Both the position numbers and the translations under genes were made by a program. The notes below the pieces were generated by a model, which worked only from the letters and a program-made list of their open reading frames with translations, was not told the origin of the DNA and searched no databases. This document shows positions 2,973-20,959 of a stretch of 20,959 nucleotides of DNA, piece after piece (position 1 is the first letter of the stretch; each line of letters opens with the position of its first letter). Source of the DNA: a virus; IMG/VR virus record IMGVR_UViG_3300042332_000941, positions 1-20,959 of that record, one strand, 5' to 3'.

Positions 2973-3006
2973 AAAGGCCCTAAATAGGGCCTTTTTTATT
3001 TTTTAT
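2973..3006 (+). terminator. Rho-independent terminator after the acidic coiled-coil gene
   Basis: The arm AAAGGCCCTA (2973-2982) pairs with TAGGGCCTTT (2985-2994); the core AGGCCCT/AGGGCCT has a small A/T loop. A T-rich run extends to about 3006. It lies 14 bases after the stop and separates this operon from the gp32 unit. Confidence 0.9.
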
Positions 3007-3015
3007 AAGTACAAC

Positions 3016-3047
3016 TTGCAAGTTCCAAAAAAGAGTAGTATATTTGC
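3016..3047 (+). promoter_or_regulatory. Bacteroidota-type promoter, distal of two before gp32
   Basis: TTG at 3016-3018 and TAtaTTTG at 3039-3046 are 20 bases apart and match the host-type -33/-7 pattern. Transcription would start near 3052, giving a leader of about 120 bases before gp32. Confidence 0.65.
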
Positions 3048-3090
3048 AAATATAAGGTGAAATTACAAACAAGTTAAATGTTAAAATTGC

Positions 3091-3120
3091 TTGACTTTTA
3101 GGTATTTTTTAGTATATTTG
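3091..3120 (+). promoter_or_regulatory. Bacteroidota-type promoter, proximal of two before gp32
   Basis: TTGAC at 3091-3095 and TAtaTTTG at 3113-3120 match the consensus with 19 bases between TTG and the -7 box. The start would be near 3126. The leader of about 48 bases is A-rich with no Shine-Dalgarno and little structure. Confidence 0.75.
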
Positions 3121-3173
3121 TAAGAGACAAAACGAGTAAAATAACAATACATATAAATTTAAAACAAAACAAA

Positions 3174-4070: not shown

Positions 4071-4096
4071 CATTTAGTGTTTTATAAAAACAAAAT

Positions 4097-4119
4097 AGAG
4101 TGAGGAATCGCTCTTTTTT
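4097..4119 (+). terminator. Rho-independent terminator after gp32
   Basis: AGAGTG (4097-4102) pairs with CGCTCT (4109-4114), with one G-T pair and a six-base loop, followed by six T's. It lies 27 bases after the gp32 stop and makes gp32 a single-gene unit. Confidence 0.8.
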
Positions 4120-4156
4120 GTTCTAGAAATAACATATATAGTAAATAAAAATTAAA

Positions 4157-5293: not shown

Positions 5294-5312
5294 TAACCTT
5301 TAATTCAATAAT

Positions 5313-6362
5313 GTGAACAGAAGACCACCACGTAATGGTGAAATCATTGAAAAAATACAAAACACACTATTAGTAGATGGAAACGCCTTGTTTAAACATG
5401 GGTATTTCGGTGCTAAGAATAGTTACAACGAACATGGCCAACATATTGGTGGTTTATGTGTATTTCTTACGAAACTACATAAGTTATTAACTGATGATTT
5501 ATATCACAGAGTATATGTGTTCTGGGATGGTAATTTAAGTGGTAAATTAAGATACGATATCTATGAACCATATAAGAGTGGTCGTGGTAAGGATTATATC
5601 AACGGTACGCACCCGATTGATGAATCAGAACTACAACAACGTAGAGTAATTTGGGAATACTTAAATGAAATGTACGTAAGACAATTAAAAGATGAGGTAA
5701 TTGAAAGTGATGATTTCATTGCATACTATTGTCTAACAAAGAAGAAAAATGAGAAGATAACAATTTGTACAACAGATAGGGATTTTTTACAACTTATATC
5801 TGATGACGTAAGAATATATTTCTTAGATTTGAAAAATTATGTTGATACTTCAAATTATTTTTCGTACTTTTGTTTCCATAAAGATAATTCTGTTTTAATG
5901 AAAACAATGACTGGTGATGTTAGTGATAGTATCAAAGGCATAAAAGGATTGGGGGAAACAAAATTAATATCTTTATTTCCAGAACTTAAAACCAAAAAAT
6001 TAACCATATATGAAATTTTAGAACTAGCTAAACAACAAGAAGACCAAAGAATTAATTCTGGTCAAAAACCTCTTAAAATTTTAAATAACATCATCAATAG
6101 AGTTACCGATGGGGTTCAAAAAGACAAGATTTATGAAATAAATGAAAAACTTGTTAATTTAAGCCGTCCAATGATAACGGATAAAGGTATAAGAGAATTA
6201 GAACTTCTAAAAGAAGGTACGCTAGATTCATCAGGGCGTGACCTAAAGAATGTTCTTATAATGATGAAAAGAGATGGGGTAGATAAGGCCCTAGGCGAAA
6301 CGAGATTTTCAGATTTTCTTATTCCGTTCAAAAAACTTATTGATAGAGAAAACATTTTTTAA
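5313..6362 (+). CDS. rnh: 5'-3' nuclease, T4 RNase H / FEN-1 family
   Basis: The 349-aa protein has the metal-binding acidic residues of the FEN/5'-nuclease family in order: D22 (LLVDGNALF), D72 (VFWDG), E131-D133-D134 (ESDDF), D155 and D157 (TTDRDF), and D202/D205 in the helix-turn motif GDVSDSIKGIKGLG (201-214). The likely role is removal of RNA primers and flaps from lagging-strand fragments, stimulated by gp32 as in T4. The start is GTG at 5313: the ATG two bases upstream (5311) reads straight into TGA, an in-frame stop lies at 5301, and the next in-frame ATG comes after about 118 residues and would remove the first catalytic Asp residues. It begins 20 bases after uvsX and is probably co-transcribed with it. 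At 349 aa it is longer than T4 RNase H (305 aa), mainly at the C-terminus. Confidence 0.9.
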   Translation: MNRRPPRNGEIIEKIQNTLLVDGNALFKHGYFGAKNSYNEHGQHIGGLCVFLTKLHKLLTDDLYHRVYVFWDGNLSGKLRYDIYEPYKSGRGKDYINGTHPIDESELQQRRVIWEYLNEMYVRQLKDEVIESDDFIAYYCLTKKKNEKITICTTDRDFLQLISDDVRIYFLDLKNYVDTSNYFSYFCFHKDNSVLMKTMTGDVSDSIKGIKGLGETKLISLFPELKTKKLTIYEILELAKQQEDQRINSGQKPLKILNNIINRVTDGVQKDKIYEINEKLVNLSRPMITDKGIRELELLKEGTLDSSGRDLKNVLIMMKRDGVDKALGETRFSDFLIPFKKLIDRENIF

Positions 6363-6377
6363 TAAAAACCAAAAATT

Positions 6378-6872
6378 ATGAGTACTAGTAAACAAACAAC
6401 ATTTGACCCAAAAAAGATTGAAGAACAACGTTTTGAGTTTGTTCTATATATTAACAACCACATTATCTGCCAAAGGTATTTTGGGATTAGAAATTTTAAT
6501 GAAAATTCAATTAAATCTTATGAATTAAAAGAATTAATGGATGAGATTTGTGGTGTGAACAATGGTGAGATGGGTTATATGGGTATCATACCTAACTATT
6601 TAAAGAATAAATCACAAGATTTTATTTGGAATATGTATAACCCTTATTCACTTACATCTGATTTTCCTGTTAAAAACAATTTTGATAAGAACGATGAATT
6701 TCAGTTTGAGATAAAAGTAGATAAGAAAGTTGTGGCTAAAACATCTTTTTCTGGTGGTTATTTTCCACCAAAAGTTAAGTATGCTGTTGACATCAAAGAA
6801 ATAATCCCATCAATTATGTATGAAATTAGGGAATATTTAAGTCGTGAAAAATATAATAAAGTGGTTGTCTAA
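6378..6872 (+). CDS. Hypothetical protein between 5' nuclease and helicase genes, 164 aa
   Basis: The family is not recognised. The protein is soluble, with no membrane segment or catalytic motif that I can name. It has a beta-rich start (FEFVLYINNHIICQRYFGI), a Gly/Met/Asn-rich loop (GVNNGEMGYMGIIPNY) and a Phe/Lys-rich C-terminal half (FSGGYFPPKVKYAVDIKEI). It starts 16 bases after the nuclease gene and its stop lies in the loop of an 18-bp hairpin. In T4 the slot between uvsX and gene 41 is taken by gene 40, and a helicase loader (gp59) is encoded near gp32, so an accessory replication role is possible from position alone; nothing in the sequence proves it. Confidence 0.75.
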   Translation: MSTSKQTTFDPKKIEEQRFEFVLYINNHIICQRYFGIRNFNENSIKSYELKELMDEICGVNNGEMGYMGIIPNYLKNKSQDFIWNMYNPYSLTSDFPVKNNFDKNDEFQFEIKVDKKVVAKTSFSGGYFPPKVKYAVDIKEIIPSIMYEIREYLSREKYNKVVV

Positions 6873-6894
6873 ACAACCATTTTATTATATTTAT
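6851..6894 (+). terminator. Long hairpin and T-rich tail, with the upstream stop codon in the loop
   Basis: Bases 6851-6868 pair with 6873-6890 over 18 base pairs with one G-T pair; the four-base loop CTAA contains the TAA stop of the preceding gene. The upper eight pairs (GTGGTTGT/ACAACCAT) are followed by TTTTATTATATTT and preceded by an A-rich arm, so it could terminate in either direction. It separates the uvsX unit from the helicase gene. Confidence 0.75.
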
Positions 6895-6927
6895 GATAAC
6901 AACAGTTTTTAAATTATGAAAAAATAA

Positions 6928-8328
6928 ATGGCGAAGATAGAAAAGAACGATTTAGGGTTTTTGGGGGCTGACTATGAATTACGTCTAGTGGCACAATTAT
7001 TGACAGATAATAGGTTTGCAAATTCGATTATTGATATAATTGACCCTAATTATTTTCTTGACCAACATATCAAGTTAATTGTTGCTAGTATAAAAGATGC
7101 AAAAGAGGATGATGATATTATCCCAGATATGGGAAGTATTAAAATAAGACTTCTAGAAACAATAACTGATGATTTAATAAGAAAATATACAATACAATAT
7201 TTAGCAAAAATATCAGAAGCTAGTTCTTATGATTCTCTTAAAATTCAAGATATTGCAATGAAATTTTGCAAACAACAAGAACTTAAAAAATCAATCAAAA
7301 AAATACAAAAAATAATCGATTTAGGTGATATTGAACAATATGATGAATGTGAAGCTATATTAAGAAAGGCTTTGGACCATGGTGATAATAAAGACGATGG
7401 TATGGGTATTTTTGAAAATATCAAAGATGTGTTGAAAGACGATTTTAGAAAACCCATCAGAACTGGTATAAAAGGATTGGATGAGGTTATGGATGGAGGA
7501 TTGTCTAAGGGTGAATTAGCTGTTATTCTAGCTCCGTTTGGCGTTGGAAAAACGACCATGATTACAAAGATTGCAAATACAGCGATGAATGATGGTAATA
7601 AGGTTTTACAAATATTTTTTGAGGATAACCCAAAAGTAATTCAAAGAAAACACATATCTTGTTGGTCAGGAATAGATTTAAATAGTTTATCCTTGCACAA
7701 AGATGCTATCATGGAACTCTGTGATGAAAAACAAAAAGAAGGTAAAGGTATTTTAAAACTTAAGAAGTTTCCTAGTGATGGCACAACAATACCAATTATT
7801 AGACAATATATTAGGAAAAAAATTGCTGAAGGTTTTAAACCAGATGTTGTTCTATTAGATTATATTGATTGTGTTGAACCATCTAGAAAATTCGATGATG
7901 TTTTTTCTGGTGAAGGTAGTGTAATGAGGCAATTTGAGTCTATGTTATCAGAATTTGAAATTGCTGGTTGGACAGCAGTTCAAGGAAACAGAAGTTCAAT
8001 AAAAGCTAATGTTGTAGAGGCTGACCAAATGGGTGGTTCAATCAAGAAAGGTCAAATAGGTCACTTTATAGTATCTATCGCTAAAAATCTTGACCAAAAA
8101 GAGAATGGAACCGCTACAATGGCAATCTTAAAATCAAGGTTTGGTAAGGATGGAATCATATTTGAAGATATTGTTTTTGATAACGCTAGAATACAAATTG
8201 ATATGGGGCAAAATATGGGTGGTAAAAGTAGAGTAGAACACAAAAAAGATGTTAGTAGACAAGATATTGCTAGAGTGGCAGAAGTATTTTCAGCAGACAA
8301 AATAAGAAGAGACGTATTAGAAAATTAA
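6928..8328 (+). CDS. 41: Replicative DNA helicase, T4 gp41 / DnaB-like
   Basis: The 466-aa protein is close to T4 gp41 (475 aa). Residues 1-150 form the DnaB-like helical N-terminal domain. The RecA-like C-terminal domain starts with IRTGIKGLDEVMDGGL and has Walker A APFGVGKTT (202-210), a Glu in IFFEDN (E232), Walker B VVLLDYID (307-314), the Gln motif TAVQGNRSS (Q352) and an arginine-finger-like LKSRFGKDG (R404). It would unwind the fork 5'-3' as a hexameric ring. No primase gene is in the window. The ATG at 6928 directly follows an in-frame ATG-AAA-AAA-TAA (6916-6927), so nothing upstream can be added. It heads the helicase-nrdB-nrdA group, which closes with the terminator at 11481. Confidence 0.92.
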   Translation: MAKIEKNDLGFLGADYELRLVAQLLTDNRFANSIIDIIDPNYFLDQHIKLIVASIKDAKEDDDIIPDMGSIKIRLLETITDDLIRKYTIQYLAKISEASSYDSLKIQDIAMKFCKQQELKKSIKKIQKIIDLGDIEQYDECEAILRKALDHGDNKDDGMGIFENIKDVLKDDFRKPIRTGIKGLDEVMDGGLSKGELAVILAPFGVGKTTMITKIANTAMNDGNKVLQIFFEDNPKVIQRKHISCWSGIDLNSLSLHKDAIMELCDEKQKEGKGILKLKKFPSDGTTIPIIRQYIRKKIAEGFKPDVVLLDYIDCVEPSRKFDDVFSGEGSVMRQFESMLSEFEIAGWTAVQGNRSSIKANVVEADQMGGSIKKGQIGHFIVSIAKNLDQKENGTATMAILKSRFGKDGIIFEDIVFDNARIQIDMGQNMGGKSRVEHKKDVSRQDIARVAEVFSADKIRRDVLEN

Positions 8329-8343
8329 TAAAAAAAAATAACT

Positions 8344-9297
8344 ATGTATTTAAAAGACAAAACATTAAAAAAACGATATTCTATTTTTCCAATTATTCAT
8401 AATGATTTATGGGAAGATTATAAAAAAGCAGAATCTCAAACTTGGGTTGCTGAAGAAATTGATTTAAGCAAAGATAAATTTGACGAACTTAAAGAAAATG
8501 AAAAAACATATTTAAAAAATATTTTAGCTTTTTTTGCTATTTCGGATGGTTTAGTAATTGATAATTTGGCTACAAATTTCCTTAATGAGGTTGAGATATT
8601 AGAAGCTCAATATTTCTATGGTCATCAAACATTTATTGAACAAGTACATGCAAACGGTTATTCTTTATTGATTGAAACGTTTATTAAAAATCTTCATGAA
8701 AAAGATGAATTATTCAACTCAATGGAAACCAATGAAGCAGTTGCTAAAAAAGCTGAATGGGCAGAGAATTGGATTCAACACCCATCATTTGCACACAGAT
8801 TGGTTGCTTTTGCTTGTGTTGAAGGGATTGCTTTCTCAAGTGTATTTTCTGGTGTTTTTTGGTTTAGAAGTAGAAATAAAATGCCAGGGTTGGGTGCGAT
8901 GAATGAACTTATTCTAAGGGATGAGACATTTCATTATGAATTTGCTGTCAATCTTTACAAGAACTATTTGAAAGATGATTATAAATTATCACAAGAAGAA
9001 CTTAGAAAAATCATATTGGGTTGTTATGAAGTGGAAAAAGTTTTTGTAGAAAAAAGCACACCTGATGGATTACAAGGTATCACCAAAGATGACATGGTAA
9101 AATATGTTCAATACGTAACTGATATTGTATTAAACGATTTTGGTTGTGAAAGAGAGTTTAAAATATCAAACCCTCTTGAATACATGTCTAGAATTGGTTT
9201 ATCATCTAAAAATAACTTTTTTGAGAAAAGAGAGGGTGAATATACTAGAGTTGATATCCCTACAACAACCGAAGGTATTTTTGACGAAGAATTTTAA
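8344..9297 (+). CDS. nrdB: Class Ia ribonucleotide reductase, beta (radical) subunit
   Basis: The 317-aa protein has all diiron ligands and the radical Tyr in canonical spacing: D40 (AEEID), E99 and H102 (FIEQVH), radical Y106, E160 (CVEG), E194 and H197 (RDETFH). The context FYGHQTFIEQVHANGYSLL resembles the eukaryote-type R2 sequence (FYG.Q...E.IH...Y). The acidic, aromatic C-terminus GIFDEEF fits the R2 tail that docks on the large subunit. It makes and holds the tyrosyl radical used by NrdA to reduce ribonucleotides, supplying dNTPs for phage replication. It starts 15 bases after the helicase gene and ends 10 bases before nrdA, so it is almost certainly co-transcribed with both. Confidence 0.95.
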   Translation: MYLKDKTLKKRYSIFPIIHNDLWEDYKKAESQTWVAEEIDLSKDKFDELKENEKTYLKNILAFFAISDGLVIDNLATNFLNEVEILEAQYFYGHQTFIEQVHANGYSLLIETFIKNLHEKDELFNSMETNEAVAKKAEWAENWIQHPSFAHRLVAFACVEGIAFSSVFSGVFWFRSRNKMPGLGAMNELILRDETFHYEFAVNLYKNYLKDDYKLSQEELRKIILGCYEVEKVFVEKSTPDGLQGITKDDMVKYVQYVTDIVLNDFGCEREFKISNPLEYMSRIGLSSKNNFFEKREGEYTRVDIPTTTEGIFDEEF

Positions 9298-9307
9298 ATA
9301 AAAAAAA

Positions 9308-11461
9308 ATGAGAATTTTAAAAAGAGATAAAACGACACAGGCTTTTATGCCTAATAAAATTTTGAGCAGAATCAAAACTCAAGCAACTGGTTTAATGGTT
9401 GATGCAGATGCTCTATTCCTTGAAGTTATTCCATTGATAACTGATAATATTACAACAACTGAAATTGACGAAATAATAGCCTTTAAAGCAGCTGATAAAA
9501 TAATACAACACCCAGACCATGCATTGTTAGGTGGTAGAATTTTATTAAGTCGTCAATCAAAATTAATTGGTAAAGAATTACAACCAGTAGATTTAACATA
9601 CGATTTTTTTGCTGCAACAACATTTTTATCCAAATATTCAATGAGGGATAATAATAAAACTCCAATTGAATTACCTTCTTGTATGTATGAGCGTGTTGCA
9701 AATCATTTATATGGTGATGATGAAGATAGTAAAAAAGAACTATTAAAAGAATTAAAGACAAAAAGAATTAACTTCGCCACTCCAACGTATACCAATGCTG
9801 GTATAAATAAAAGAGGAGCAATGATTAGCTGCAATTTAACACATTTAGAAGAAGATTCTTTTGAAGGTATTGAAGCAACGCTAACAAAAATAGCGTCCGC
9901 TTCAAAAGAAGGTTCGGGTATTGGTTTATTAATTGACCCATTAAGAAGCAAGGATAGTATAGTTGAATCATTTCAGGGAAATGCTGGTGGTGTGACAAGA
10001 CTTGCTGATATGGTTCAATCAAAAATGAGATTCTATAAACAAGGTTCACGTTCTGGAAGTTGTGCTTTATATTTGTCTGTATGGCATAGAGATATATTTG
10101 ACTTTTTAGAACTCACATTACCAATTGGTGATGAACAATTAAGGAGTCGTGATTTGTTTACGGCTGTTATCATAAATGATTTATTTATGAAAAAATTGGA
10201 AAATAATGAGGATTGGTATATATTTTGTCCTAATAAAATTAAAAAAGCTGGGTTAAAAGCTTTTCATACAATTTGGGGTGAGGAGTTTGAGAATGAATAT
10301 CAAAAAGCTGTCGATATGGGTTTGGGTAAAAAAGTTAACCCTAAAGAAATATTTGATTCATTAATTAAATCACAGGTTGAAAGTGGAAGACCATATGTTA
10401 TGTTTAAAGATAATGCTAACAGACGTAATATGCAATCCAATATTGGACCAGTAACTCAATCAAATTTGTGCATTGAAATTTTTCAAGCTTCAAAACCTAG
10501 ATATACTCCGCAATGTACTCTAGCATCTATAAATTTGGCAGAACATAATGGTCTAAAATCTATAGAAAAAGGTACTAAAGTTTTAGTAAAAGCTTTAAAT
10601 AAAGTTATTGACACAAACAAATGGAGTGATGATTGGAGCCAAGCAGCTGGTGTAGACCAAAGAGCATTAGCGATAGGTGTTGCTGGTTTAGCTGATTTCT
10701 TTGCAAAAAAGAAAATTTCTTTTGAAAGCGAAGAAGCTAAAAAATGGAATAACGATATTTTTGAAACAATGTATAAAGCAGCAGTAGAAGAATCTATGGA
10801 GTTAGCTGAATCATTAGGTAAGAATTATCCAGCATGGGAGGGTAGCCCATACTCAAAAGGTGAGACATATATTGAAAATTGGTCACCAAAACCATCTGGA
10901 GAACCTATACCGATGTATAATAGTTTATTATTGGGTCTTATGCCAACAGCTTCATCTGCAATTCTTTTGGGGTCTTTTGAATCATTTGAACCAGTTACAT
11001 CTAATTTGTTCACGAGACGTGTAGGGCAGGGTGAATTTTTAATCATCAACAAATATCTTGTAAATGAATTATTAGAAAATGAACTTTGGGATTCAGAAAT
11101 GATTGATAAGGTGATTAAAAACAAAGGAAGCATACAAAATATTGTTGAAATTCCAGAAGATATTCGTTTTAGGTATAAAGATGTTTGGGAAATACCACAA
11201 AGAGTATTGTTAGATTTATCAATAATAAGAAATAAATATGTTGACCAATCACAATCATTGAATGTTTACCACTCTGATGCCAAATATGCTAAAATTGCTA
11301 GTGCTTTGATGTATGCTTGGAAAGGTGGGTTAAAAACTGGGGTTTATTACACTAGAACAAAATCAAAATTGGAGACAAACACGAAACTAGCTACAACACA
11401 AGTAACTGTGACGAAAAAACCAAAGGATAGTCAGTTTGAATGTTTTGGTTGTTCAGCTTAA
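9308..11461 (+). CDS. nrdA: Class Ia ribonucleotide reductase, alpha (catalytic) subunit
   Basis: The 717-aa protein begins with an ATP-cone-like domain (about 1-90, ILKRDKTTQAFMPNKI) that could give dATP feedback control. Catalytic residues are visible: C175 (MISCNLTH) and C403 (PQCTLASINLA) as the redox pair, N386-C388-E390 (SNLCIEI) with the thiyl Cys388, MPTASSA (545-551), and Y680-Y681 (GVYYTRT) for radical transfer. The C-terminal swinging-arm pair is C712 and C715 (CFGCSA). Segments such as SNLFTRRV and GEFLIIN resemble the eukaryotic R1 type. It reduces ribonucleoside diphosphates together with NrdB. No thioredoxin or glutaredoxin gene is seen, so the host's or one elsewhere in the genome must recycle it. 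The start lies 10 bases after nrdB and a strong terminator follows. Confidence 0.96.
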   Translation: MRILKRDKTTQAFMPNKILSRIKTQATGLMVDADALFLEVIPLITDNITTTEIDEIIAFKAADKIIQHPDHALLGGRILLSRQSKLIGKELQPVDLTYDFFAATTFLSKYSMRDNNKTPIELPSCMYERVANHLYGDDEDSKKELLKELKTKRINFATPTYTNAGINKRGAMISCNLTHLEEDSFEGIEATLTKIASASKEGSGIGLLIDPLRSKDSIVESFQGNAGGVTRLADMVQSKMRFYKQGSRSGSCALYLSVWHRDIFDFLELTLPIGDEQLRSRDLFTAVIINDLFMKKLENNEDWYIFCPNKIKKAGLKAFHTIWGEEFENEYQKAVDMGLGKKVNPKEIFDSLIKSQVESGRPYVMFKDNANRRNMQSNIGPVTQSNLCIEIFQASKPRYTPQCTLASINLAEHNGLKSIEKGTKVLVKALNKVIDTNKWSDDWSQAAGVDQRALAIGVAGLADFFAKKKISFESEEAKKWNNDIFETMYKAAVEESMELAESLGKNYPAWEGSPYSKGETYIENWSPKPSGEPIPMYNSLLLGLMPTASSAILLGSFESFEPVTSNLFTRRVGQGEFLIINKYLVNELLENELWDSEMIDKVIKNKGSIQNIVEIPEDIRFRYKDVWEIPQRVLLDLSIIRNKYVDQSQSLNVYHSDAKYAKIASALMYAWKGGLKTGVYYTRTKSKLETNTKLATTQVTVTKKPKDSQFECFGCSA

Positions 11462-11480
11462 AATAAAAAAAAAATTAATA

Positions 11481-11505
11481 AAAGGGCCAATTTGGCCCTT
11501 TTTTA
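11481..11505 (+). terminator. Rho-independent terminator after nrdA
   Basis: AAAGGGCCA (11481-11489) pairs with TGGCCCTTT (11493-11501) around a three-base loop, followed by a T-run to 11504. It divides the nucleotide/replication genes from the baseplate genes. The core resembles the terminator at 2973. Confidence 0.92.
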
Positions 11506-11540
11506 TTTGCACATTTACTTCCTAAAAACTTTTACTATAA

Positions 11541-11547
11541 TATTTAT
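11541..11547 (+). promoter_or_regulatory. Candidate AT-rich late-promoter element before gp25
   Basis: ATATTTAT followed by an ATAA sequence occurs 15 bases before gp25 and, in similar form, before other gene groups at 1990, 6887 and 13877. No TAnnTTTG box is present here although a promoter is expected after the terminator. The element is short and the DNA AT-rich, so the call is weak. Confidence 0.25.
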
Positions 11548-11562
11548 GTATAAAATGGTAAA

Positions 11563-11949
11563 ATGGCTAACGGTAGATACATAAACATAAACTATCCCTT
11601 TAAGGATTCAAATAAGGGTTTTTTCTTGGATTTAACATCTGATGATAATTCAGCTATAAAGGCTGACTTAATGCATCTTATATTAACTAGAAGGGGTCAA
11701 AGATTATATAATCCAGATTTTGGGACAGATTTATTAAGATTTATATTTGAACCAAATGATGGTTTAACTTTAAGTGGTATAAAAGAAGAAATAACTAGCG
11801 TGGTAAAAAAATATTTACCAAACTTACAAATAAACGAAATTAGTGTAACTGAATCAGAGACAAGTGAGTATGCTGCTGTGGTTAGGTTAGACTACACAAT
11901 AACAGATAACGTTTTCGAAATGACAGATTTCGTAATAATCAATATTTAA
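11563..11949 (+). CDS. 25: Baseplate wedge subunit, T4 gp25 family
   Basis: At 128 aa it has the length of T4 gp25 (132 aa). The segment SAIKADLMHLILTRRGQRLYNPDFGTDLLRFIFEP is cut here in two for reading: LMHLILTRRGQRL and NPDFGTDLLRFIFEP. It is the hallmark of the gp25/TssE lysozyme-like wedge fold, ending in EPN where many members have EPR. The rest alternates helix and strand as in the family. It helps form the inner wedge that contacts the tail sheath. It opens the virion gene block after the nrdA terminator and ends one base before the gp6 start, as expected for partners made together. Such gp25-gp6 (W-J type) adjacency is common in contractile-tailed phages. Confidence 0.92.
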   Translation: MANGRYININYPFKDSNKGFFLDLTSDDNSAIKADLMHLILTRRGQRLYNPDFGTDLLRFIFEPNDGLTLSGIKEEITSVVKKYLPNLQINEISVTESETSEYAAVVRLDYTITDNVFEMTDFVIINI

Positions 11950-11950
11950 T

Positions 11951-13771
11951 ATGGCAAATCAAGGAATTAATTACTCATCACGTAACTTTGTGGATATAAG
12001 AGCTGACTTAGTAGATATGGTTAGACAGTATTATCCAGATATTTTTAACGACTTTAATGATGCGTCAGTAGGTATGATGCTTTTGGAATTAAACGCTGCT
12101 GTTGGTGATATGTTATCATTTAATACAGATAGGATGTTTCAAGAGACACAAATTGATTACGCACAAGAAAGAAAATCTGTGTTATCAATGGCAAGAACTT
12201 TTGGATTAAAGGTTCCAGGAAAACGTCCAAGTGTAACGATTGTTGATTTTTCAGTTACCGTTCCACCTTTCGGTGATACATTTGACGTATCTTATGCACC
12301 TGTAATTAGTTCTGGAGCTCAAGCAGTCGGTGGTGGTAAAGTATTTGAAACTTCTTATGACATAGATTTCTCAAGCCCTTTTACAATTGGTGGGATACCT
12401 AACAGACTTATTTTACCTAATTTTAATTCTAATGGTATTTTAACAAATTACACGCTTGTTAAAAGAGAAATTGTTGTAAATGGATTTACAAAAATTTTTA
12501 AAAAGGTAATCAACCCAACAGATGTTAGACCATTTTTTGAAATAATTCTTCCAGACGATAATGTTTTATCGATTGACTCTATAATAACTTTACAAGGAAC
12601 CAATTATACAAGAGACCCTAGTTTGAACGAATTTTTAAATATTGAAAATAAATGGTTTGAGGTTGATGCTTTAGCTGAGAGTGATATATTCATAGAGGAT
12701 AATGTAAGTGTTAGTGATAATGCTGGTATTAGACCAGGAAAATGGGTAACAACAACAAGAAAATTTATTCGTGAATATACTGATTTAGGTTTTACAAGAG
12801 TGGTGTTTGGAGGTGGAAGTGTAGATACTAGTAGTCTTAATGATTTCAGTAATAACCCTGCTTTAGTTAATCAAATAGGTGACTTTATTAATAACACTGC
12901 TTTGGGTGAAACACCAACAGCAAATGAAACTATGTTTGTAAAATATAGAGTTGGTGGTGGGGCTGATACTAATTTAGGTTCTAATGTTTTAACGTCTCCA
13001 GGAATTGTAAACATGGTAGTAAATGGCCCAAACACGACTATCAATACTGCTGTAAGAGCTTCTTTAAAGGTCAATAATGCTTTTCCAGCTATAGGTGGAA
13101 AAGATGCGCCAAGCGTAGAAGAAATAAGAAATTTCGTAAAATATAATTTTTCAGCTCAAAATAGAGCAGTAACTATCAAAGATTATCAATCTAGAATAGC
13201 TTTGATGCCAGGTCAATTTGGTGTACCATTTAGACAGGGTGTTTTTGAAGAACAAAATAAAGTTAAGGTTTATATATTAGGTTTAGATGCTGATGGTAAA
13301 TTAACAAATACTTCTACTAGCACACTTATGCAAAACATTGCAACATATTTGGCTGATTATAGAATGATGAATGATTATGTTCAAGTATCAAATGGTAAGA
13401 TAATAAATTTATCTTTTGAAATTGATTTATTTATTGATAAAAAATCACCACAATCACAAATTGTAAGTCAAGTTATTAGTACTGTACAAAGCACTATTGA
13501 TATAAACAAATACCAAATGGGTGATAACATTTATTTATCACCATTGATTGAGGCAATAAACAATGTTGGTGGAGTTTTGAATGTAATTGATTTAAGGGTT
13601 TATAATAAAGTTGGTGAAGGAAAATATAGTGTAAACGAAATTTCACAACCTTATATTGACCCTTCAACTAGACAGATTGATATTTCTTCTGATTACACTC
13701 TTTTTGGTGACCCAATAAGTATGTTTGAAGTCAAATACCCTACATTAGATATAAAGGTTCGTGTAAAATAA
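11951..13771 (+). CDS. 6: Baseplate wedge subunit, T4 gp6 (baseplate J-like)
   Basis: The 606-aa protein (T4 gp6 is 660 aa) starts with the typical SRNFVDIRADLVDMV, DFNDASVGMMLLELNA and DMLSFNTDRMFQE sequence of the gp6 N-terminal helices. A long beta-rich insert follows (about 95-370). The conserved C-terminal J-like part contains NFVKYNFSAQNRAVTIKDY (about 391-415), a PGQFGVPFRQG loop and two alpha/beta repeats to the end. It forms the dimeric ring-building part of the baseplate wedge with gp25 and gp53/gp7 equivalents, which are not seen here. The start is one base after the gp25 stop. A 140-base gap with a hairpin follows, so expression may change after this gene. Confidence 0.9.
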   Translation: MANQGINYSSRNFVDIRADLVDMVRQYYPDIFNDFNDASVGMMLLELNAAVGDMLSFNTDRMFQETQIDYAQERKSVLSMARTFGLKVPGKRPSVTIVDFSVTVPPFGDTFDVSYAPVISSGAQAVGGGKVFETSYDIDFSSPFTIGGIPNRLILPNFNSNGILTNYTLVKREIVVNGFTKIFKKVINPTDVRPFFEIILPDDNVLSIDSIITLQGTNYTRDPSLNEFLNIENKWFEVDALAESDIFIEDNVSVSDNAGIRPGKWVTTTRKFIREYTDLGFTRVVFGGGSVDTSSLNDFSNNPALVNQIGDFINNTALGETPTANETMFVKYRVGGGADTNLGSNVLTSPGIVNMVVNGPNTTINTAVRASLKVNNAFPAIGGKDAPSVEEIRNFVKYNFSAQNRAVTIKDYQSRIALMPGQFGVPFRQGVFEEQNKVKVYILGLDADGKLTNTSTSTLMQNIATYLADYRMMNDYVQVSNGKIINLSFEIDLFIDKKSPQSQIVSQVISTVQSTIDINKYQMGDNIYLSPLIEAINNVGGVLNVIDLRVYNKVGEGKYSVNEISQPYIDPSTRQIDISSDYTLFGDPISMFEVKYPTLDIKVRVK

Positions 13772-13870: not shown

Positions 13871-13915
13871 ATGGCTATATTTAAGGATAACAAAAAATTA
13901 AATAAAAAAAAATGA
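13871..13915 (+). other. Possible 14-codon leader ORF overlapping the next start
   Basis: An ATG at 13871 opens a 14-residue, strongly basic reading frame (MAIFKDNKKLNKKK) whose TGA overlaps the ATG of the next gene as ATGA. Such overlaps often couple translation. It is too short to prove coding and could be chance in A-rich DNA. Confidence 0.2.
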
Positions 13916-14271
13916 GTTGTAATTGCAAAAAAGGTTCTAGTATATTAAAAGATAGTTTAGAATCAAATGAAAAAATAAAAATTAATGGTCAAACAATTTT
14001 AACATACACATTAAAAACATTTGGTTTTTTACTCATGTTACTAGCCCTTCCAATTTTAAATATTTATATAATTTGGTTAATGTTTAATATTTTGGTTTTA
14101 AATAAAAATGTTGATTTTAAACCACTTTTATTTTCAATAGGTAGTAAATTTATGGAAAAAGAAGATGATGAAAATGATGAAGAATTTTTAGGTGATGAAT
14201 TTGATAATTTGACAGAAGAAGATGTTATATTATTAGATTCTGATGAAATAACAAGTGTAGAAAAAAAATAA
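13912..14271 (+). CDS. Small membrane protein with Cys-rich N-terminus and acidic tail, 119 aa
   Basis: The family is not recognised. The N-terminus MSCNCKKGS has two Cys near the start but no signal peptide or lipobox in front of them. Residues 36-64 are strongly hydrophobic (FGFLLMLLALP then ILNIYIIWLMFNILVL) and form one long or two Pro-broken membrane helices. Residues 82-111 are very acidic. The stop is one base before the giant structural gene, so the two are co-expressed, and the giant protein itself has an internal hydrophobic block. Options are a membrane chaperone or assembly partner for that protein, a holin-like protein (it is small, with one or two membrane helices, but far from the lysin gene), or a virion membrane-contact protein. 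None is proven. Confidence 0.75.
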   Translation: MSCNCKKGSSILKDSLESNEKIKINGQTILTYTLKTFGFLLMLLALPILNIYIIWLMFNILVLNKNVDFKPLLFSIGSKFMEKEDDENDEEFLGDEFDNLTEEDVILLDSDEITSVEKK

Positions 14272-14272
14272 A

Positions 14273-17200
14273 ATGTCAGATTCAATAAGAATTAGAACCA
14301 CACCCAATGGAGGTGATAAATATATAAAACTAAAATTGGACCAAAAGTTTGATTTTGTTGAGGTTTTATCTTTAAAACTTACACAAGAAGATGCCTATCA
14401 GAATTTTTGTTCTGATTATGGTGTTGTTGTTGGTAGAGTTATAGTAAACAGTGGTTTTGGTGTTCCTAACGCTAAAGTAAGTATTTTTATACCTTTAGAT
14501 GAAATTGACAAAGAAGATTCTGTTATAAAGGGGTTATATCCTTACGAAATAGTTACAGATAAAAATTCTGAAGGTGTTAGATACAATGTTTTACCTAAAA
14601 ATACATCCACAAAAAATCCATGTTTTACAGAAGTAGGTACTTTACCAAATAAAAGAGAAGTATTAGACAATTCTAAAATGTCGGAAGTTTATTGCAAATA
14701 CTATAAATTTACAACAACAACAAATTATGCTGGTGACTTCATGATTTTTGGTGTACCAGTAGGAACACATACATTACATGTTGATGTTGATTTATCAGAT
14801 ATTGGTCCATTATCTCAAAGACCGTATGATTTTACTAGAGAAGGTTATTCACCTAAATTATTTGAAACCACAACTAAATTTAAGGGTGGTTCAAATTTGG
14901 ATAAATTACCACAAATAAAATCAACAAATATTGGGGTTAACGTACAACCATTTTGGGGTGATTTAGAAACATGTGAAATTGGTATAACTAGAGCTGATGT
15001 AGATTTAAATTTTACGATTTCACCAAATGCTATTTTTCTTGGTAGTATTTACGGAGACCAAGATAAAAATAGTGTGAATAAATATTGTAACCCAAGAGCT
15101 AAAACTGGTCAAATTTGTGAACAAAGTGTTGGTGCTGGTTCTGTTGAAATGATAAGAAAAAATTTAAATGATGATATAGAAGAATTTAGTGTTGAGGGTG
15201 GTAGAGTAATTGATGATGATGGTGTTTGGGCTTTTCAAATACCAATGAATTTAGATTATGTGGTGACTGACGAAGTTGGAGATTTTATTCCGTCAAATGA
15301 CCCTAATATTGGTGTTCCAACAAGAAGCAGAGTTAGATTTAAAATATCAATGGATGAAACTGGTGGTGAAGGTAAGCTTAGAACTAGAGCAAAATATTTG
15401 GTACCAAATAACCCACAAAATCAAAATGAATTTGATTATAATTTTAATGAAAATACAAAAGAATCAAGTTTTAGGGATATAAATTGGAATAAAATATATA
15501 CAATATCTAACTTCATACCAAGATTTCAACGTGGTTTTAAAGGTGTTTTGACCAGAAATATGACAGGTATGAAAGATATTGATGCATGTCCAGGAACAAG
15601 AACTCCATTTCCTTTTAATAGAGTTAATACAACAATAAACCCTATTTTCTTTATCATTTGTTTAATAATGAAGATAATTGGTTTTATAGTTTATATTATT
15701 AATTATATTCTATTGTTCATAATAAATGGTATAGTAAAATTAATTAGGGATATAGTTGATGTTTTAAATGCTTTAGGTGCTAGTTTAAATAAACCAGATT
15801 ACGTACCCTGTGTAGCTATAGAATGTCCAGCTGAAAGCAGTTATAGATACGCCCCAGGATGTCGAGGTTGTCAAAATGTGTCTAATTGTCCAGACACTGT
15901 AGCAAATGCTGGTTTTAACCAAGCAGCTGCTAATGGTTTGCCGATAACATATTTTTGTGGTGATAGTTTTGGCGGTCAATGTACAGGAGATGATTTATTA
16001 GTTGGGTTAGATGATTGTATTGCGTTTGAAATGGCTAAAACATTAAATTTATTTCAGTTTGATTTTTATAATGATTGGGTTGTTGGAACGCTTTATACTT
16101 TTTTATTGAAATATAAAAAAAGAACAAAAGGTTTTGAAAGATTTTGTGAGTTTGATTGTGCGGATTTTTCTGGTACCTTGGATTATAGCGGTGTTGATGG
16201 AAATAAAGATGCAAAACCAGATAATAAATGTTACAACCAAGAATTATTAGACACGTGTTATAGTTGTGATAAACCACCTGGTCTGCTATATGCTAATTGT
16301 CAAAGAAAAAGCGAAAACTTCCAAATGAGAGAAGGGTTAATAAAAAAATACGATAACGAATTATATTATGCGGCAACATTACATAAGAACCCATTATATA
16401 AATTATTTGCAACAGAATTAGTTTGTTTAGGTTCTGTTTTAGAATGTGATTGGCAGGGATATCCTAAATTACAACCTTTTTTAATAGAATCAACCTATAA
16501 ATTACCTCCAGAAACAGCAGAAATAGAAGAGCAATCAGATGGTACTAATTTAATAGTTGAAAGTGGTATGGTTTCAATTAGTGAAAAATTAAAAGGTGTT
16601 TTTTTTGATATAAATTGTACTGGTATACATGTAAACACTAGACAATGTTTAAACTTAAGACATATTTGTGAGTTTGGTGTTGATTCTGATGAAGTTGTTT
16701 TAGACCCATCAACTGGCGCTGTCGTGTTAGAAGCTGATAGTGTAATTGGAACAGCTGAAATAGACGAAACAAATAGAAGAATAAGAAATTCATATACATA
16801 CATAAACAATTCACAAACCTTTCCTACTACTTATAGTATTCCACAAAACTTCAATAGTGATTTTAACTTGGCCAATGATGATGAGTATGATTTTGCTGCT
16901 GGTTTACCAGACAATGGTAATGAATATGCTGAGTTTAGAGGATATGTAACATCACAATCTTTCGACCAACCAAAACATTCATATTTTATGTATTTTGGTA
17001 TGGTTCCAGGAAAATCTGCATTAGCAAAAATGAACAGCAGATATTTTATAACATGTAAAACATCTGTTAAAACAGATGTTAGTGTAACATTTTCTGCTAC
17101 ACCAGCATTGATAGGTTGTAACGGTCAAATAGAACTTACCTTTATCGGTGGTCAGGAACCTTATTACTTTACAGTTACTAGTTCAAACACAACACTAAAT

Positions 17201-18427
17201 AATACACCACAAGCCCCATATTATTATAGTGGTAACACAGAAAAATTACTTACACCAACAGTTACTTTGCCTCCATCTACTCAGTTTAATGGTTTATGTT
17301 CTGGTACATATGTTGTTAGTGGGTTTGATTCATTGGGTTATCCAATATCTCAAACAATAGCATTAACTGGTCCGTTAGAATTTAGTTGTTTTGTTGGTGT
17401 TTCACAAAATATTACAACACCTGGAACTACAGATGGTGAAATAACAATATACAATATTATTGGTGGGACACCACCTTATCAGTACACATTATTGGATTCT
17501 AACAACAACAACAACATACTAATTCCACCAACAGTAGCTCAAGCCCCAGTTGTGATAAGTAATTTAAGTTTAGGTGAATATATTGTAAAAGTAACAGATT
17601 CATCAACACCTCCAGACGAATGTATAACAACTGGTATTACAATATCTGGACCTACTCAATTAAATGTATCACCTACAATTGTTGATGCATCATGTCCAAA
17701 CATTGGTGATGGTAAAATAACGTTAACTATATCTGGAGGTCAACCAATGTATAGTATTGAAACGGTTGGAATAACAGACCCAAATTTTGTGAGCAACTCT
17801 GGGGTAATATCTGGATTATTTCCTGGTGATTATGAGGTAAAAGTAACTGATAGTAGTAATCCACCGCAAATATGGGGACCTAATATCGTTACAGTAGCAT
17901 CACCGCAATCAATTAAGATAACCGCTGTTGCATCAAATGTGTATCAAAAACAATGTAGTCCGAATTCATTTACAATACCGTTTATAGCAACTGATGGTGG
18001 TACAACTGGCCCTAAAACAATTGAGTATAGATTAAATCAAGCCACAACTTGGTCTATTGAATCTACAACTCAACCTTATAATACACCAAATCAAGTTATG
18101 GATTTTAATATTTTAGGTTCGTATCAAACAATAAGTTTTAGGTTAGTTGGAAATGGAAATTGTAGAAGTAATACTTTAAGTTACAATTCAGTACAAAAAC
18201 CATCTGTTGCACTAGCTGTAAGTTCTAACACAAAAACTGGTCCATTTAATAGTCTTTATACTTATAATTTAACTGTTGTTGGTGGTATTGGTGCTTATAC
18301 GGCAACTGCAAACCCACAAAGTAATAGTACAATAACAGTTAATGGAGCTAACATAATAATAACTAGTCCTTCTAGTACTTTAACTATAACAATTACCGAT
18401 AGTGTTGGTTGTCAAATACTAGTATAA
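14273..18427 (+). CDS. Giant structural/adhesin-like protein, 1384 aa, with SprB-like C-terminal repeats
   Basis: No T4 homologue is recognised. Visible regions: (a) residues about 1-250 contain carboxypeptidase-regulatory/Ig-like folds (GRVIVNSGFGVPNAKVSIFIP; YAGDFMIFGVPVGTHTLHVD) and 250-430 a second beta-rich part (GVWAFQIPMNLDYVVTDEVG); (b) residues 456-500 are an uninterrupted hydrophobic block (FFIICLIMKIIGFIVYIINY and on); (c) residues 513-799 hold 19 Cys; (d) residues about 936-1384 are beta-sandwich repeats with SprB-type signatures, namely DGEITIYNIIGGTPPYQYTL ... LGEYIVKVTDSS and DGKITLTISGGQPMY ... PGDYEVKVTDSS. SprB repeats are typical of Bacteroidota gliding adhesins. It lies after baseplate genes and before another structural gene, so a large tail or host-contact protein is the best guess. 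The start follows the upstream stop by one base. Confidence 0.8.
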   Translation: MSDSIRIRTTPNGGDKYIKLKLDQKFDFVEVLSLKLTQEDAYQNFCSDYGVVVGRVIVNSGFGVPNAKVSIFIPLDEIDKEDSVIKGLYPYEIVTDKNSEGVRYNVLPKNTSTKNPCFTEVGTLPNKREVLDNSKMSEVYCKYYKFTTTTNYAGDFMIFGVPVGTHTLHVDVDLSDIGPLSQRPYDFTREGYSPKLFETTTKFKGGSNLDKLPQIKSTNIGVNVQPFWGDLETCEIGITRADVDLNFTISPNAIFLGSIYGDQDKNSVNKYCNPRAKTGQICEQSVGAGSVEMIRKNLNDDIEEFSVEGGRVIDDDGVWAFQIPMNLDYVVTDEVGDFIPSNDPNIGVPTRSRVRFKISMDETGGEGKLRTRAKYLVPNNPQNQNEFDYNFNENTKESSFRDINWNKIYTISNFIPRFQRGFKGVLTRNMTGMKDIDACPGTRTPFPFNRVNTTINPIFFIICLIMKIIGFIVYIINYILLFIINGIVKLIRDIVDVLNALGASLNKPDYVPCVAIECPAESSYRYAPGCRGCQNVSNCPDTVANAGFNQAAANGLPITYFCGDSFGGQCTGDDLLVGLDDCIAFEMAKTLNLFQFDFYNDWVVGTLYTFLLKYKKRTKGFERFCEFDCADFSGTLDYSGVDGNKDAKPDNKCYNQELLDTCYSCDKPPGLLYANCQRKSENFQMREGLIKKYDNELYYAATLHKNPLYKLFATELVCLGSVLECDWQGYPKLQPFLIESTYKLPPETAEIEEQSDGTNLIVESGMVSISEKLKGVFFDINCTGIHVNTRQCLNLRHICEFGVDSDEVVLDPSTGAVVLEADSVIGTAEIDETNRRIRNSYTYINNSQTFPTTYSIPQNFNSDFNLANDDEYDFAAGLPDNGNEYAEFRGYVTSQSFDQPKHSYFMYFGMVPGKSALAKMNSRYFITCKTSVKTDVSVTFSATPALIGCNGQIELTFIGGQEPYYFTVTSSNTTLNNTPQAPYYYSGNTEKLLTPTVTLPPSTQFNGLCSGTYVVSGFDSLGYPISQTIALTGPLEFSCFVGVSQNITTPGTTDGEITIYNIIGGTPPYQYTLLDSNNNNNILIPPTVAQAPVVISNLSLGEYIVKVTDSSTPPDECITTGITISGPTQLNVSPTIVDASCPNIGDGKITLTISGGQPMYSIETVGITDPNFVSNSGVISGLFPGDYEVKVTDSSNPPQIWGPNIVTVASPQSIKITAVASNVYQKQCSPNSFTIPFIATDGGTTGPKTIEYRLNQATTWSIESTTQPYNTPNQVMDFNILGSYQTISFRLVGNGNCRSNTLSYNSVQKPSVALAVSSNTKTGPFNSLYTYNLTVVGGIGAYTATANPQSNSTITVNGANIIITSPSSTLTITITDSVGCQILV
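15638..15772 (+). other. Internal hydrophobic (membrane-like) block of the giant protein
   Basis: It encodes residues 456-500, nearly all Ile, Leu, Phe, Val and Tyr with isolated Lys/Arg, long enough for two membrane helices. It sits between the N-terminal Ig-like part and the Cys-rich part and is in frame, so it is not an artefact of a shift. Confidence 0.7.
17078..18424 (+). repeat. SprB-like beta-sandwich repeat region of the giant protein
   Basis: It encodes residues 936-1384. Three clear units (about 936-1034, 1036-1127, 1130-1211) share Cys or Gly near the start, DG(E/K)ITxxxxGGxxPY, a turn, L/F-xxGxY-x-V-K-VTD and a closing SGP/ASP. Two weaker units follow (about 1212-1309, 1310-1384). 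The similarity is at protein level; DNA identity between units is low, so duplication is old. Confidence 0.65.
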
Positions 18428-18436
18428 TTATGTAAT

Positions 18437-20218
18437 ATGGATATAAATAGAATAAAACAAATTCTTGGTTCTGAAACGTCAAAGGAAGCGACTAATAGAG
18501 ATGCTTTTATAAAAATAAACGTAAATAATAATGAAAGATTATTACCACCTGGTGAAATACTTAGAATAGTAAATGTTGATGAAAGATTTACGTTTGAAAG
18601 ACAACAAAGCACTTTTTATAGAATAATAGGGACAATTAATTTAACAGCAACAAATGCTTTATTTAATTTAAATGATTCTCTAGAATCTGATAATTTTACT
18701 TGGAGTACGTTTAACTATTTTAATACTCAAAACGGTTTGTATAGATTTTTTGAACCAGTTTATTTAACAGCTATTAATAACAATTTAGTTGAAACTAATG
18801 GTTGGTTTGGTTATTATGACCCAGATATTTCAAAGGCTGGATTATGTAATTATTATGATATGGAACCAAAAAGAAATCGGTTTTATTTTTTATCAGACAC
18901 AAATCCATATCATGCTGCTCCAAACACACCACCAGTTAAAAATTGGGAATTAACTATAACCTATCCATATGCTGTTGATAGTGGTCACACTATGGTTCAA
19001 AATGGTTTATTTATTGTAGATTCTGAACCAGCAGTTGTTTCTACAAGAGTTATGACAGCTTTTGCAATGCCTTGTATACATAATTTACAAATAGGTGATA
19101 TTGTTAGGATAAGTGGGACAACTGGTTATGATGGTGACCATTTGGTTGTAAGAACAGGTCAAGATAATGGTGAATTAAAAGAATATTATTTTGTTATAGA
19201 TGTTCCACCTATTGGACAAATAGGTCCTTTTTCAAGAATAAAGAGAGTGGTTAATAATTTTGAATCACAATACTATTTTAGGCGTTTTAAAAAAATAAAA
19301 ACTAGAAATTCACCAATTATTAAAAATAATGATTATGAAACATATAGACTAGCATTTAGTGAGAATATATACGCTGATACAAATGTTCAATTTTCATTTA
19401 ACGAAGACATAGATATTAGCGATTTAAAAGATAATTTAGGTAGACCATTAACTGAAATATATTTTACGGTTATTAAAACAAATAGTAATGGGTTATTTTC
19501 AAAAATATCATCTGGGATTGAAGTTCCGTTTATATCTAAATTTAATACTAGTCCTATAAATACATATTTACAGGATATACCAGTTATTAATAAAATACAT
19601 AATGGTAATGGTAATCCATGGCCATCACATATTCCATTGGAATTTAATGTAACAATTAATTCTTTAACAGATGATTTTTACGGAGACTTGGTCGAATATA
19701 ATACGTATGAAGTTAAAGAAACAGTATTAGCTGAAATTGCTCATAGATTTAATACAAAAAACAGAGAAACCGCATCGGCAACAACAACATATAATGTATC
19801 AGAACCTAATATAGATACTAACACATCGGGAACAACCAATACTACAAATTTAGGTCCTAGACAAGAAGGTTATTTTTATAAACCACACCATAGAATGACT
19901 ATAAAAACATTGTCATCATATGTTGAACAAGGCGATGAAAATACTGTTGGAATTCCAGATTATGCCACTAATTTAAATGATGGTAGATATTTTTGGAGAG
20001 ATATATTAAACGTAGGTGTAAATGAAACAGATGAATTACCTTTAAACTATCCATTTTTAAATGGTTGTCATTATTTATATAATAACTATTGTTTTTATGT
20101 TAAAAGACAAGACCCATTTGATAATTGGGATTTATACTATGCTAAATTTCCTAGTGACCCTATTGGTGAAAGAATAACTGATAAATTTAATATTAATTCT
20201 GCCGAAGATGTTTGTTAA
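18437..20218 (+). CDS. Putative virion structural protein, 593 aa
   Basis: No named family is certain. The protein is beta-rich, with many Asn, Tyr, Phe and Thr and no membrane segment, which is typical of tail proteins. Residues 211-240 (PCIHNLQIGDIVRISGTTGYDG) match the H-L-x-x-GD-x-V-x-I-x-G pattern of small beta-barrel domains frequent in phage tail proteins. A low-complexity Thr/Asn/Ser linker (446-474) precedes a C-terminal domain with EGYFYKPHHRMTIKTLSSYVE (about 477-497 region) and aromatic-rich sequence to the end. The Met at 18437 follows the giant gene by nine bases and a short ATG-TAA at 18430. The last 11 bases overlap the next gene. Position suggests a part of the same host-contact or tail assembly. 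Confidence 0.75.
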   Translation: MDINRIKQILGSETSKEATNRDAFIKINVNNNERLLPPGEILRIVNVDERFTFERQQSTFYRIIGTINLTATNALFNLNDSLESDNFTWSTFNYFNTQNGLYRFFEPVYLTAINNNLVETNGWFGYYDPDISKAGLCNYYDMEPKRNRFYFLSDTNPYHAAPNTPPVKNWELTITYPYAVDSGHTMVQNGLFIVDSEPAVVSTRVMTAFAMPCIHNLQIGDIVRISGTTGYDGDHLVVRTGQDNGELKEYYFVIDVPPIGQIGPFSRIKRVVNNFESQYYFRRFKKIKTRNSPIIKNNDYETYRLAFSENIYADTNVQFSFNEDIDISDLKDNLGRPLTEIYFTVIKTNSNGLFSKISSGIEVPFISKFNTSPINTYLQDIPVINKIHNGNGNPWPSHIPLEFNVTINSLTDDFYGDLVEYNTYEVKETVLAEIAHRFNTKNRETASATTTYNVSEPNIDTNTSGTTNTTNLGPRQEGYFYKPHHRMTIKTLSSYVEQGDENTVGIPDYATNLNDGRYFWRDILNVGVNETDELPLNYPFLNGCHYLYNNYCFYVKRQDPFDNWDLYYAKFPSDPIGERITDKFNINSAEDVC

Positions 20219-20959
20219 AAACTATAAAATAAATATTAATACGCTTAAAAGTGGTACTACTGCTACTACTATAAATATCCCTATAAATATGGAGTATCAA
20301 CTGGTTGACCAAGCAGAGTTAATTGACCGTGTATTTGTTGAAATAGAAACAGAAAAAGCTATTAATGAAATTATTGATTATGAAAAAATAAGGTTTGTAC
20401 CAATAAATTCACTTAAAAATCAAATAAATAGTATTACCTATACTGTTGATTTATTAGGTTTAACGACTTATGGTAGTATAGGGTTTGATGATAATGATAT
20501 TAAATTTCAAAAAGAATCATTTAAACAAACATTTTTAAATTTGAATTTTTATGATTCTAATAACCCTATGAATCAAAATTTAATTTTAAATATAACATTA
20601 TTTTCACAACTAACAGCATTTGATTTGGTTCCATTAACTGGGACAACTGGTATAGCTGGTCAACCACTTCCAGCAAACTTTATTAAAATAAAATATGTTT
20701 TGGAAAATCCTTTATTAAACCCTCTTGGTTTTTCTGAAGGTTATTTTTTATATGATTACAAAGATGAGTTAAATGTTGGAGATAGCAAATACCTTTATAT
20801 GAGAGCTAGTTTTAAAAACGCTAAAGATGGTAAAAGCACAAATTTAATGGTTAAGAATACTGCTTTACCTATTGATGTATTAATTCATCAATTATATACT
20901 AGATATGTTTTAACAAGAACAATAGATGGTTATTATTTTCAAATAGATGACTCATATCA
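20208..20959 (+). CDS. Putative structural protein (3' partial)
   Basis: The frame opens at ATG 20208, inside the last codons of the upstream gene (11-base overlap, read in another frame), and stays open to the window edge, giving 250 complete codons. It begins MFVKNYKININTLKSGTTAT and continues as a beta-rich, Asn/Leu/Phe-rich protein (ELIDRVFVEIETEKAINEI; KNQINSITYTVDLLGLTTYG). No catalytic or membrane motif is seen. Composition and codon use match the two upstream structural genes, so it is probably another tail or virion protein translated by coupling. Function unknown. Confidence 0.7.
   Translation, partial: MFVKNYKININTLKSGTTATTINIPINMEYQLVDQAELIDRVFVEIETEKAINEIIDYEKIRFVPINSLKNQINSITYTVDLLGLTTYGSIGFDDNDIKFQKESFKQTFLNLNFYDSNNPMNQNLILNITLFSQLTAFDLVPLTGTTGIAGQPLPANFIKIKYVLENPLLNPLGFSEGYFLYDYKDELNVGDSKYLYMRASFKNAKDGKSTNLMVKNTALPIDVLIHQLYTRYVLTRTIDGYYFQIDDSY

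Follow-up and report, generated by a model that had tools for sequence, protein, structure and literature searches.

The DNA analysed here, hereafter the window, is the 20,959-nucleotide stretch from position 1 to 20,959 of the IMG/VR virus record IMGVR_UViG_3300042332_000941. A gene at positions 14273..18427 encodes a giant protein of 1384 amino acids (aa), which consists of a conserved core followed by a C-terminal array of immunoglobulin (Ig)-like domains with SprB-type repeats, as seen from its open reading frame (ORF), its Pfam matches and its relatives in IMG/VR. The giant gene, its parts and its neighbours from the gp25-like gene to the window end are all on the plus strand. We consider it probable that the giant protein is a baseplate-associated virion protein whose Ig-like arm contacts the host surface during adsorption. 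In this reading the phage has a contractile tail, and the protein would form part of the baseplate or be attached to it, with the conserved core, including its N-terminal 43 residues, docking to the wedge proteins next to it. The SprB-type Ig-like domains at the C-terminus would project outward as a string and make weak, probably reversible contacts with the host surface (a glycan or a surface protein) in adsorption, while residues 451-800 and Ig unit D3 would be the quickly changing, host-facing parts. We favour this reading because the gene keeps a fixed synteny with baseplate genes and its product has about five modelled Ig-like domains and neither a visible signal peptide nor a matched secretion domain, because the array is modular (one unit or none in some members) and the variation hotspots are confined to the giant gene, and because Ig-like domains are known in phage baseplate and tail-fibre proteins, as they are in capsid proteins (PMC9022992). 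From these features we infer that the protein is part of the virion, that the array points outward and that it binds, and likewise what kind of ligand it would bind.

Profile searches confirm that the SprB repeats, which a preliminary description of this DNA had reported in a phage giant protein, are real and not due to chance. In a search with the Pfam SprB profile (PF13573, cut-off 28 bits), which that description had proposed as a check, the whole 1384-aa protein scores 31.2 bits over two stretches and the C-terminal part alone 34.9 bits. Three tandem units of ~85-100 aa are present at residues 935-1211, namely D1 (residues 935-1034, 'NGQIELTFIGGQEPYYF...SGTYVVSGFDSLG', positions 17075..17374), D2 (residues 1035-1122, 'DGEITIYNIIGGTPPYQY...LGEYIVKVTDSS', 17375..17638) and D3 (residues 1123-1211, 'GDGKITLTISGGQPMYSI...PGDYEVKVTDSS', 17639..17905). 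The two Pfam stretches fall in D2 (17423-17503) and D3 (17675-17758, 30.8 bits). With a hidden Markov model (HMM) trained on 217 non-redundant cellular SprB units from Bacteroidota genomes (cell-only HMM), D1, D2 and D3 score 15.8, 32.2 and 44.2 bits, respectively, and the C-terminal beta domain D5 (18173..18424) gives a weak partial match of 12.8 bits. D4 (residues 1212-1300, 17906..18172), which is beta-sandwich-like in the model, has no HMM match and is not SprB by sequence. Because phage units were included in the iterated profile used to gather the cellular training set, this set is not wholly independent, whereas the Pfam match is. The cell-only HMM reaches at least 15 bits in 42 of 53 family proteins; none of the 53 reversed and 265 shuffled family proteins does so, the highest control score being 6.2. 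Throughout the family, HMM matches of at least 10 bits all begin beyond residue 850. The span 17078-18424 given in the preliminary description is correct for the repeat region but not for the gene, of which it is only the C-terminal third.

The C-terminal 460 residues were modelled as about five all-beta Ig-like domains (pLDDT 87), D1 being one of these beta domains. The solved structures nearest to the array model are extended adhesive or Ig/FN3 strings, among them the grappling hook protein GhpA of Aureispira, a member of the Bacteroidota (E 8e-10), and fibronectin type III repeats (Z 10.5). A sequence search for solved homologues of the repeats gave none that was convincing. The best viral structural match to the array is a phage protein already named 'SprB repeat', and A0A6J5LD72 and A0A6J5LDA4 of uncultured Caudovirales phages, both with this annotation, are among the best viral matches (E 2.8e-16 and 1.4e-9). 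The core of A0A6J5LD72 is different and does not match the conserved core (E 0.1). The structure matches also include the viral proteins A0A6J5NJX2, A0A6J5M064 and A0A5K0U741 (BFVD), annotated with gliding-motility-associated or type IX secretion system (T9SS) C-terminal sorting domains.

Fraser et al. (2006) are said to have described Ig-like domains on phage virion proteins (baseplate, tail fibre, Hoc). Like such proteins, the giant protein ends in a short string of Ig-like domains that some relatives lack. Its core has an invariant position among the baseplate genes but matches no known structural family. However, its sequence family is SprB and not Big_1, Big_2, I-set or FN3. The giant protein has no PHROGs family, though further ORFs with SprB repeats in these phages do have matches among Hoc-like PHROGs. 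It has been reported that in gut phages, mostly of Bacteroidota, Ig-like domain proteins can mediate adhesion to epithelial surfaces (PMC13370021).

Relatives of the giant protein were found at 80 IMG/VR loci, on contigs of up to 368 kb. Among 50,697 GenBank phages there is no relative of the whole protein or of the repeat region, even at E<=1; only a neighbouring type of SprB-rich ORF has a match, in a 642-kb uncultured phage. The gene order gp25, gp6, small hydrophobic protein, giant protein, 593-aa protein and 250-aa protein is fixed in ~80 phage contigs wherever the contig allows, except that a more distantly related clade and a few further relatives showed no small protein. In the window, the gp25-like baseplate wedge protein (128 aa, 11563..11949) matches PF04965 with 44.9 bits (cut-off 27.2) and the baseplate wedge subunit PHROG 261 at E 2.7e-21. 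The gp6/baseplate-J-like wedge protein (606 aa, 11951..13771) matches the baseplate wedge subunit PHROG 219 at E 1.3e-19 and is 27% identical to the baseplate wedge protein of Flavobacterium phage immuto over 100% of its length. The small hydrophobic-segment protein (119 aa, 13912..14271) has a homologue just upstream of the giant gene in most relatives; a match of this protein to African swine fever virus p17 (17.3 bits against a cut-off of 27) was taken as chance. Downstream, the 593-aa protein (18437..20218), which has no match among PHROGs, follows the giant gene in all relatives with a long enough contig, and the next operon protein (at least 250 aa, 20208..20957), recognised as an ORF with synteny in relatives, is truncated by the window end.

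Within the family, the N-terminal ~930 residues are well conserved, with 42-66% identity to the closer relatives in the alignment; conservation is much lower in the C-terminal part. Each of the 41 members whose C-terminus is complete matches PF13573 at E<=0.01, with units at the same places. At the whole-contig level, 40 of 50 records have a SprB match at E<=1e-3 and 25 of the 50 exceed the cut-off. The array is lost or shortened in some members: the protein of L053 ends after one unit, and those of L072, L075 and L079 end directly after the core and carry no units.

Comparison of closely related phages reveals two sharp hotspots of variation. The first, residues 451-800 (15623..16672), comprises the hydrophobic helix and the Cys-rich part and appears as a drop of identity in both DNA and protein; the second is D3. 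Between L021 and L036, DNA is 95-100% identical from the gp25 gene to the 250-aa gene, the giant gene excepted (with dips to 93% in a few 150-base bins elsewhere), and in the first hotspot it falls from 97-100% to 64-85%. Their protein identity is 100% in gp6, 99% in residues 1-450, 70% in residues 451-800, 98% in D1, 55% in D3 and 98-99% in the next two genes. At 3000-13500, the tail-cluster DNA of the same two is near-identical and differs almost only in two islands within the giant gene. L026 and L033 repeat this pattern, with an identity of 94% in gp6, 58% in residues 451-800, 37% in D3 and 91% in the next genes. The pairs L025/L076, L029/L030 and L066/L067 have milder or broader forms of the L021/L036 pattern, and in L018/L019 it is D1 and residues 801-925, not D3, that vary most. 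Across 62 pairs with a similar N-terminal core, identity is 84% in residues 1-455, 62% in residues 501-925 and D1, 55% in D2, and 45% in D3 and D4. When phages that are otherwise near-identical diverge sharply in a single tail gene, this usually indicates a host-interacting protein, though it does not prove one. The pattern suggests that residues 451-800 and D3 form a host-facing diversity hotspot in this protein of the baseplate gene cluster.

The same variation would be neutral drift if the Ig-like string were a passive spacer or stabiliser of the baseplate, without host contact. Ig-like domains on several phage tail proteins have indeed been reported as dispensable for tube formation and infection (PMC9022992), and the array is missing in some members. 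However, drift of a spacer does not predict variability centred on residues 451-800 and D3 while the adjoining D1 is 98% conserved (L021/L036), and we regard a purely passive role as unlikely. Binding of the giant protein to some host surface structure is likely.

The core (residues 1-930, 14273..17062) is uncharacterised and beta-rich, as defined by the alignment and the model (pLDDT 86.7, pTM 0.83). Its N-terminal 43 residues are conserved and yet predicted to be disordered when alone, as expected of an arm which folds against a partner; we therefore read these ~43 residues as a putative arm of this kind. The core model has one hydrophobic helix of 44 residues, H457-500 (15641..15772). A long, strongly hydrophobic segment is present at the same core position in every family member; in the giant protein of the window the strongest hydrophobic segment is at about residue 464. 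This protein has 36 Cys (2.6%), 20 of which are in residues 501-930, while gp6 and gp25 are Cys-free. The only good viral structural match to the core is an uncharacterised protein of Myoviridae sp. ctPuP5, A0A8S5LA66, which has the same core (Foldseek E 1.1e-86, TM 0.77, 31% identity over the 934-aa core) and whose other fragment matches the Ig array generically only.

Several of these observations weigh against a place in the baseplate. Baseplate wedge proteins do not usually have a conserved hydrophobic helix or a high Cys content, and these features could agree with a role at the membrane. The core also has no sequence match to known baseplate proteins (PHROGs, T4 gp7), and against the PDB it gives no clear fold match, only single beta domains (transthyretin, carboxypeptidase regulatory domain) with Z < 8. 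The protein might instead be a non-virion, membrane-anchored protein of the infected cell, held by helix 457-500 and altering the host surface, for example in the exclusion of other phages. The strongly hydrophobic helix of every member, the Cys-rich part after it and the small hydrophobic-segment protein encoded next door all agree with such a role. However, the gene has a single invariant place inside the baseplate operon, no signal peptide is visible, and 450 conserved residues precede the helix. Moreover, the annotation of T4 gp7 likewise includes a predicted membrane domain, and T4 gp7 is a wedge protein of the virion whose gene occupies the corresponding genomic position. We give the membrane-anchor explanation little credence.

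The likeness to T4 gp7 is one of position and build: in T4 the gene order is 6-7-8, and here too a large multi-domain product is encoded downstream of gp6 in the wedge cluster. It differs in that most relatives have the small hydrophobic-segment ORF between gp6 and the giant gene, and the giant protein carries Ig-like repeats and is a third longer. Homology to T4 gp7 was rejected, as hhalign of a 49-sequence core profile gave a probability of 0.1 over 21 columns. Nor is there homology to the proteins after gp6 in Flavobacterium phage immuto and Microcystis phage Mel-JY01, and a Pfam scan found no SprB in these neighbours of gp6.

The D1-D3 triple most likely dates back to the common ancestor of these phages and has been inherited since, because 114 of 122 units have as their nearest neighbour the unit at the equivalent position of another phage (D1 39/41, D2 38/40, D3 37/41) and the units form positional groups in a tree. 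This tree of 182 units, built on 83 columns and with few forks resolved, needs 2-4 changes per positional group as compared with about 37 with shuffled labels. The best identity of phage units to any cellular unit is 47%, in a sample of about 300 units from about ten genomes, the host itself being not identified. Recent capture from a host SprB was thus rejected for the 41 members examined. The preliminary description had proposed a phylogeny of the units against host SprB as a check, and its outcome goes against the mimicry suggested there, for the units group by position and apart from the cellular units sampled. An inherited triple also speaks against recent mimicry of the host's own adhesin.

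The host is probably a member of the Bacteroidota, because the large ribonucleotide reductase subunit is nearest to those of Cellulophaga and Tenacibaculum phages and core relatives in genome assemblies are in Bacteroidota metagenome-assembled genomes (MAGs) in three of six cases; the remaining three come from MAGs assigned to other phyla, possibly through binning errors. With such a host, the repeats could bind, mimic or compete with the host gliding adhesin SprB or its machinery, as the preliminary description had suggested. The presence of SprB-type repeats fits this idea, and the phage resistance of non-gliding Flavobacterium mutants, on which it drew, is documented: gldD/gldG mutants of F. 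johnsoniae have higher phage resistance (PMC5682007), and in F. columnare phage resistance accompanies gliding loss (PMC7345892). Such resistance justifies a test and says nothing on the giant protein. SprB repeats are not gliding-specific and are generic in Bacteroidota surface and secreted proteins: a secreted fucoidanase is predicted to have one (PMC7698502), they are enriched among T9SS substrates encoded next to polymorphic-toxin genes (PMC7073777), and they number 145 over many ORFs in one Bacteroidota genome.

The giant protein matches the curated PF13573 profile of F. johnsoniae SprB and many Bacteroidota surface proteins, with the motifs DGxI, GGxxPY and GxYxVxVTD in head-to-tail units. 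In contrast to cellular SprB, it has three to four units and not a long array, its units are about 85-100 aa long against about 76 aa in the cellular proteins sampled, and they fall in positional groups of their own on a baseplate-associated core. No T9SS sorting domain family of Pfam (Por_Secre_tail, CHU_C, type B) is matched in the giant protein at E<=1, and weak Por_Secre_tail matches occur in three of 41 relatives (best E 7e-4). The protein starts MSDSIRIRTTPNGGDKYIKLKLDQKFDF, with no N-terminal hydrophobic stretch by eye, no signal-peptide program having been used. Display on the cell would thus lack both a visible signal peptide and a matched sorting domain at the C-terminus. In cellular SprB, it is SprF that holds the protein on the cell (PMC12635249), a link of which no sign was seen here. 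Mimicry of or competition with the gliding apparatus is unsupported by these results, and we give a gliding-related role about as little credence as membrane anchoring. Least of all do we expect the array to be a fast-diversifying receptor-binding module that targets the moving gliding adhesin or its track, with the phage riding on or locking to the machinery via SprB-SprB-like contacts and D3 alleles matched to host SprB alleles.

Other SprB-bearing ORFs are present in these phages. On the contig of L078, a 1583-aa ORF (L131:1020-5768, minus strand) has seven SprB-type units (Pfam 102.9 bits) and also matches Hoc-like and virion-structural PHROGs, and a 1243-aa ORF (L131:5803-9531, minus strand) has three SprB-type units. 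On the contig of L034, a 1761-aa ORF (L132:1485-6767, plus strand) has a spondin-like thrombospondin type 1 domain (PF19028, 43.5 bits, cut-off 41), which is unusual in phage, and a weak SprB match. At the other end of the window (3-971), a D-Ala-D-Ala carboxypeptidase-like (VanY/M15) part, which the window edge truncates and which scores slightly below its Pfam cut-off, appears to be fused to a phage lysozyme domain; the product is apparently a two-part endolysin. No tRNA or Rfam elements were found in the window.

It is already known that the SprB repeat is ordinary in Bacteroidota and that SprB-annotated phage proteins exist in databases. As far as could be found, there is no earlier description of such a triple, fixed and inherited, on an uncharacterised core from the baseplate cluster and with two sharp hotspots. 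A repeat of Bacteroidota surface adhesins would thus be a long-established, inherited component of a large phage lineage that has received little study, as opposed to a stray capture. Residues 451-800 and D3 are candidate host-range determinants in phages without a known receptor-binding protein. If it is true that D3 binds the surface, it would provide a testable entry to what Bacteroidota phages recognise.

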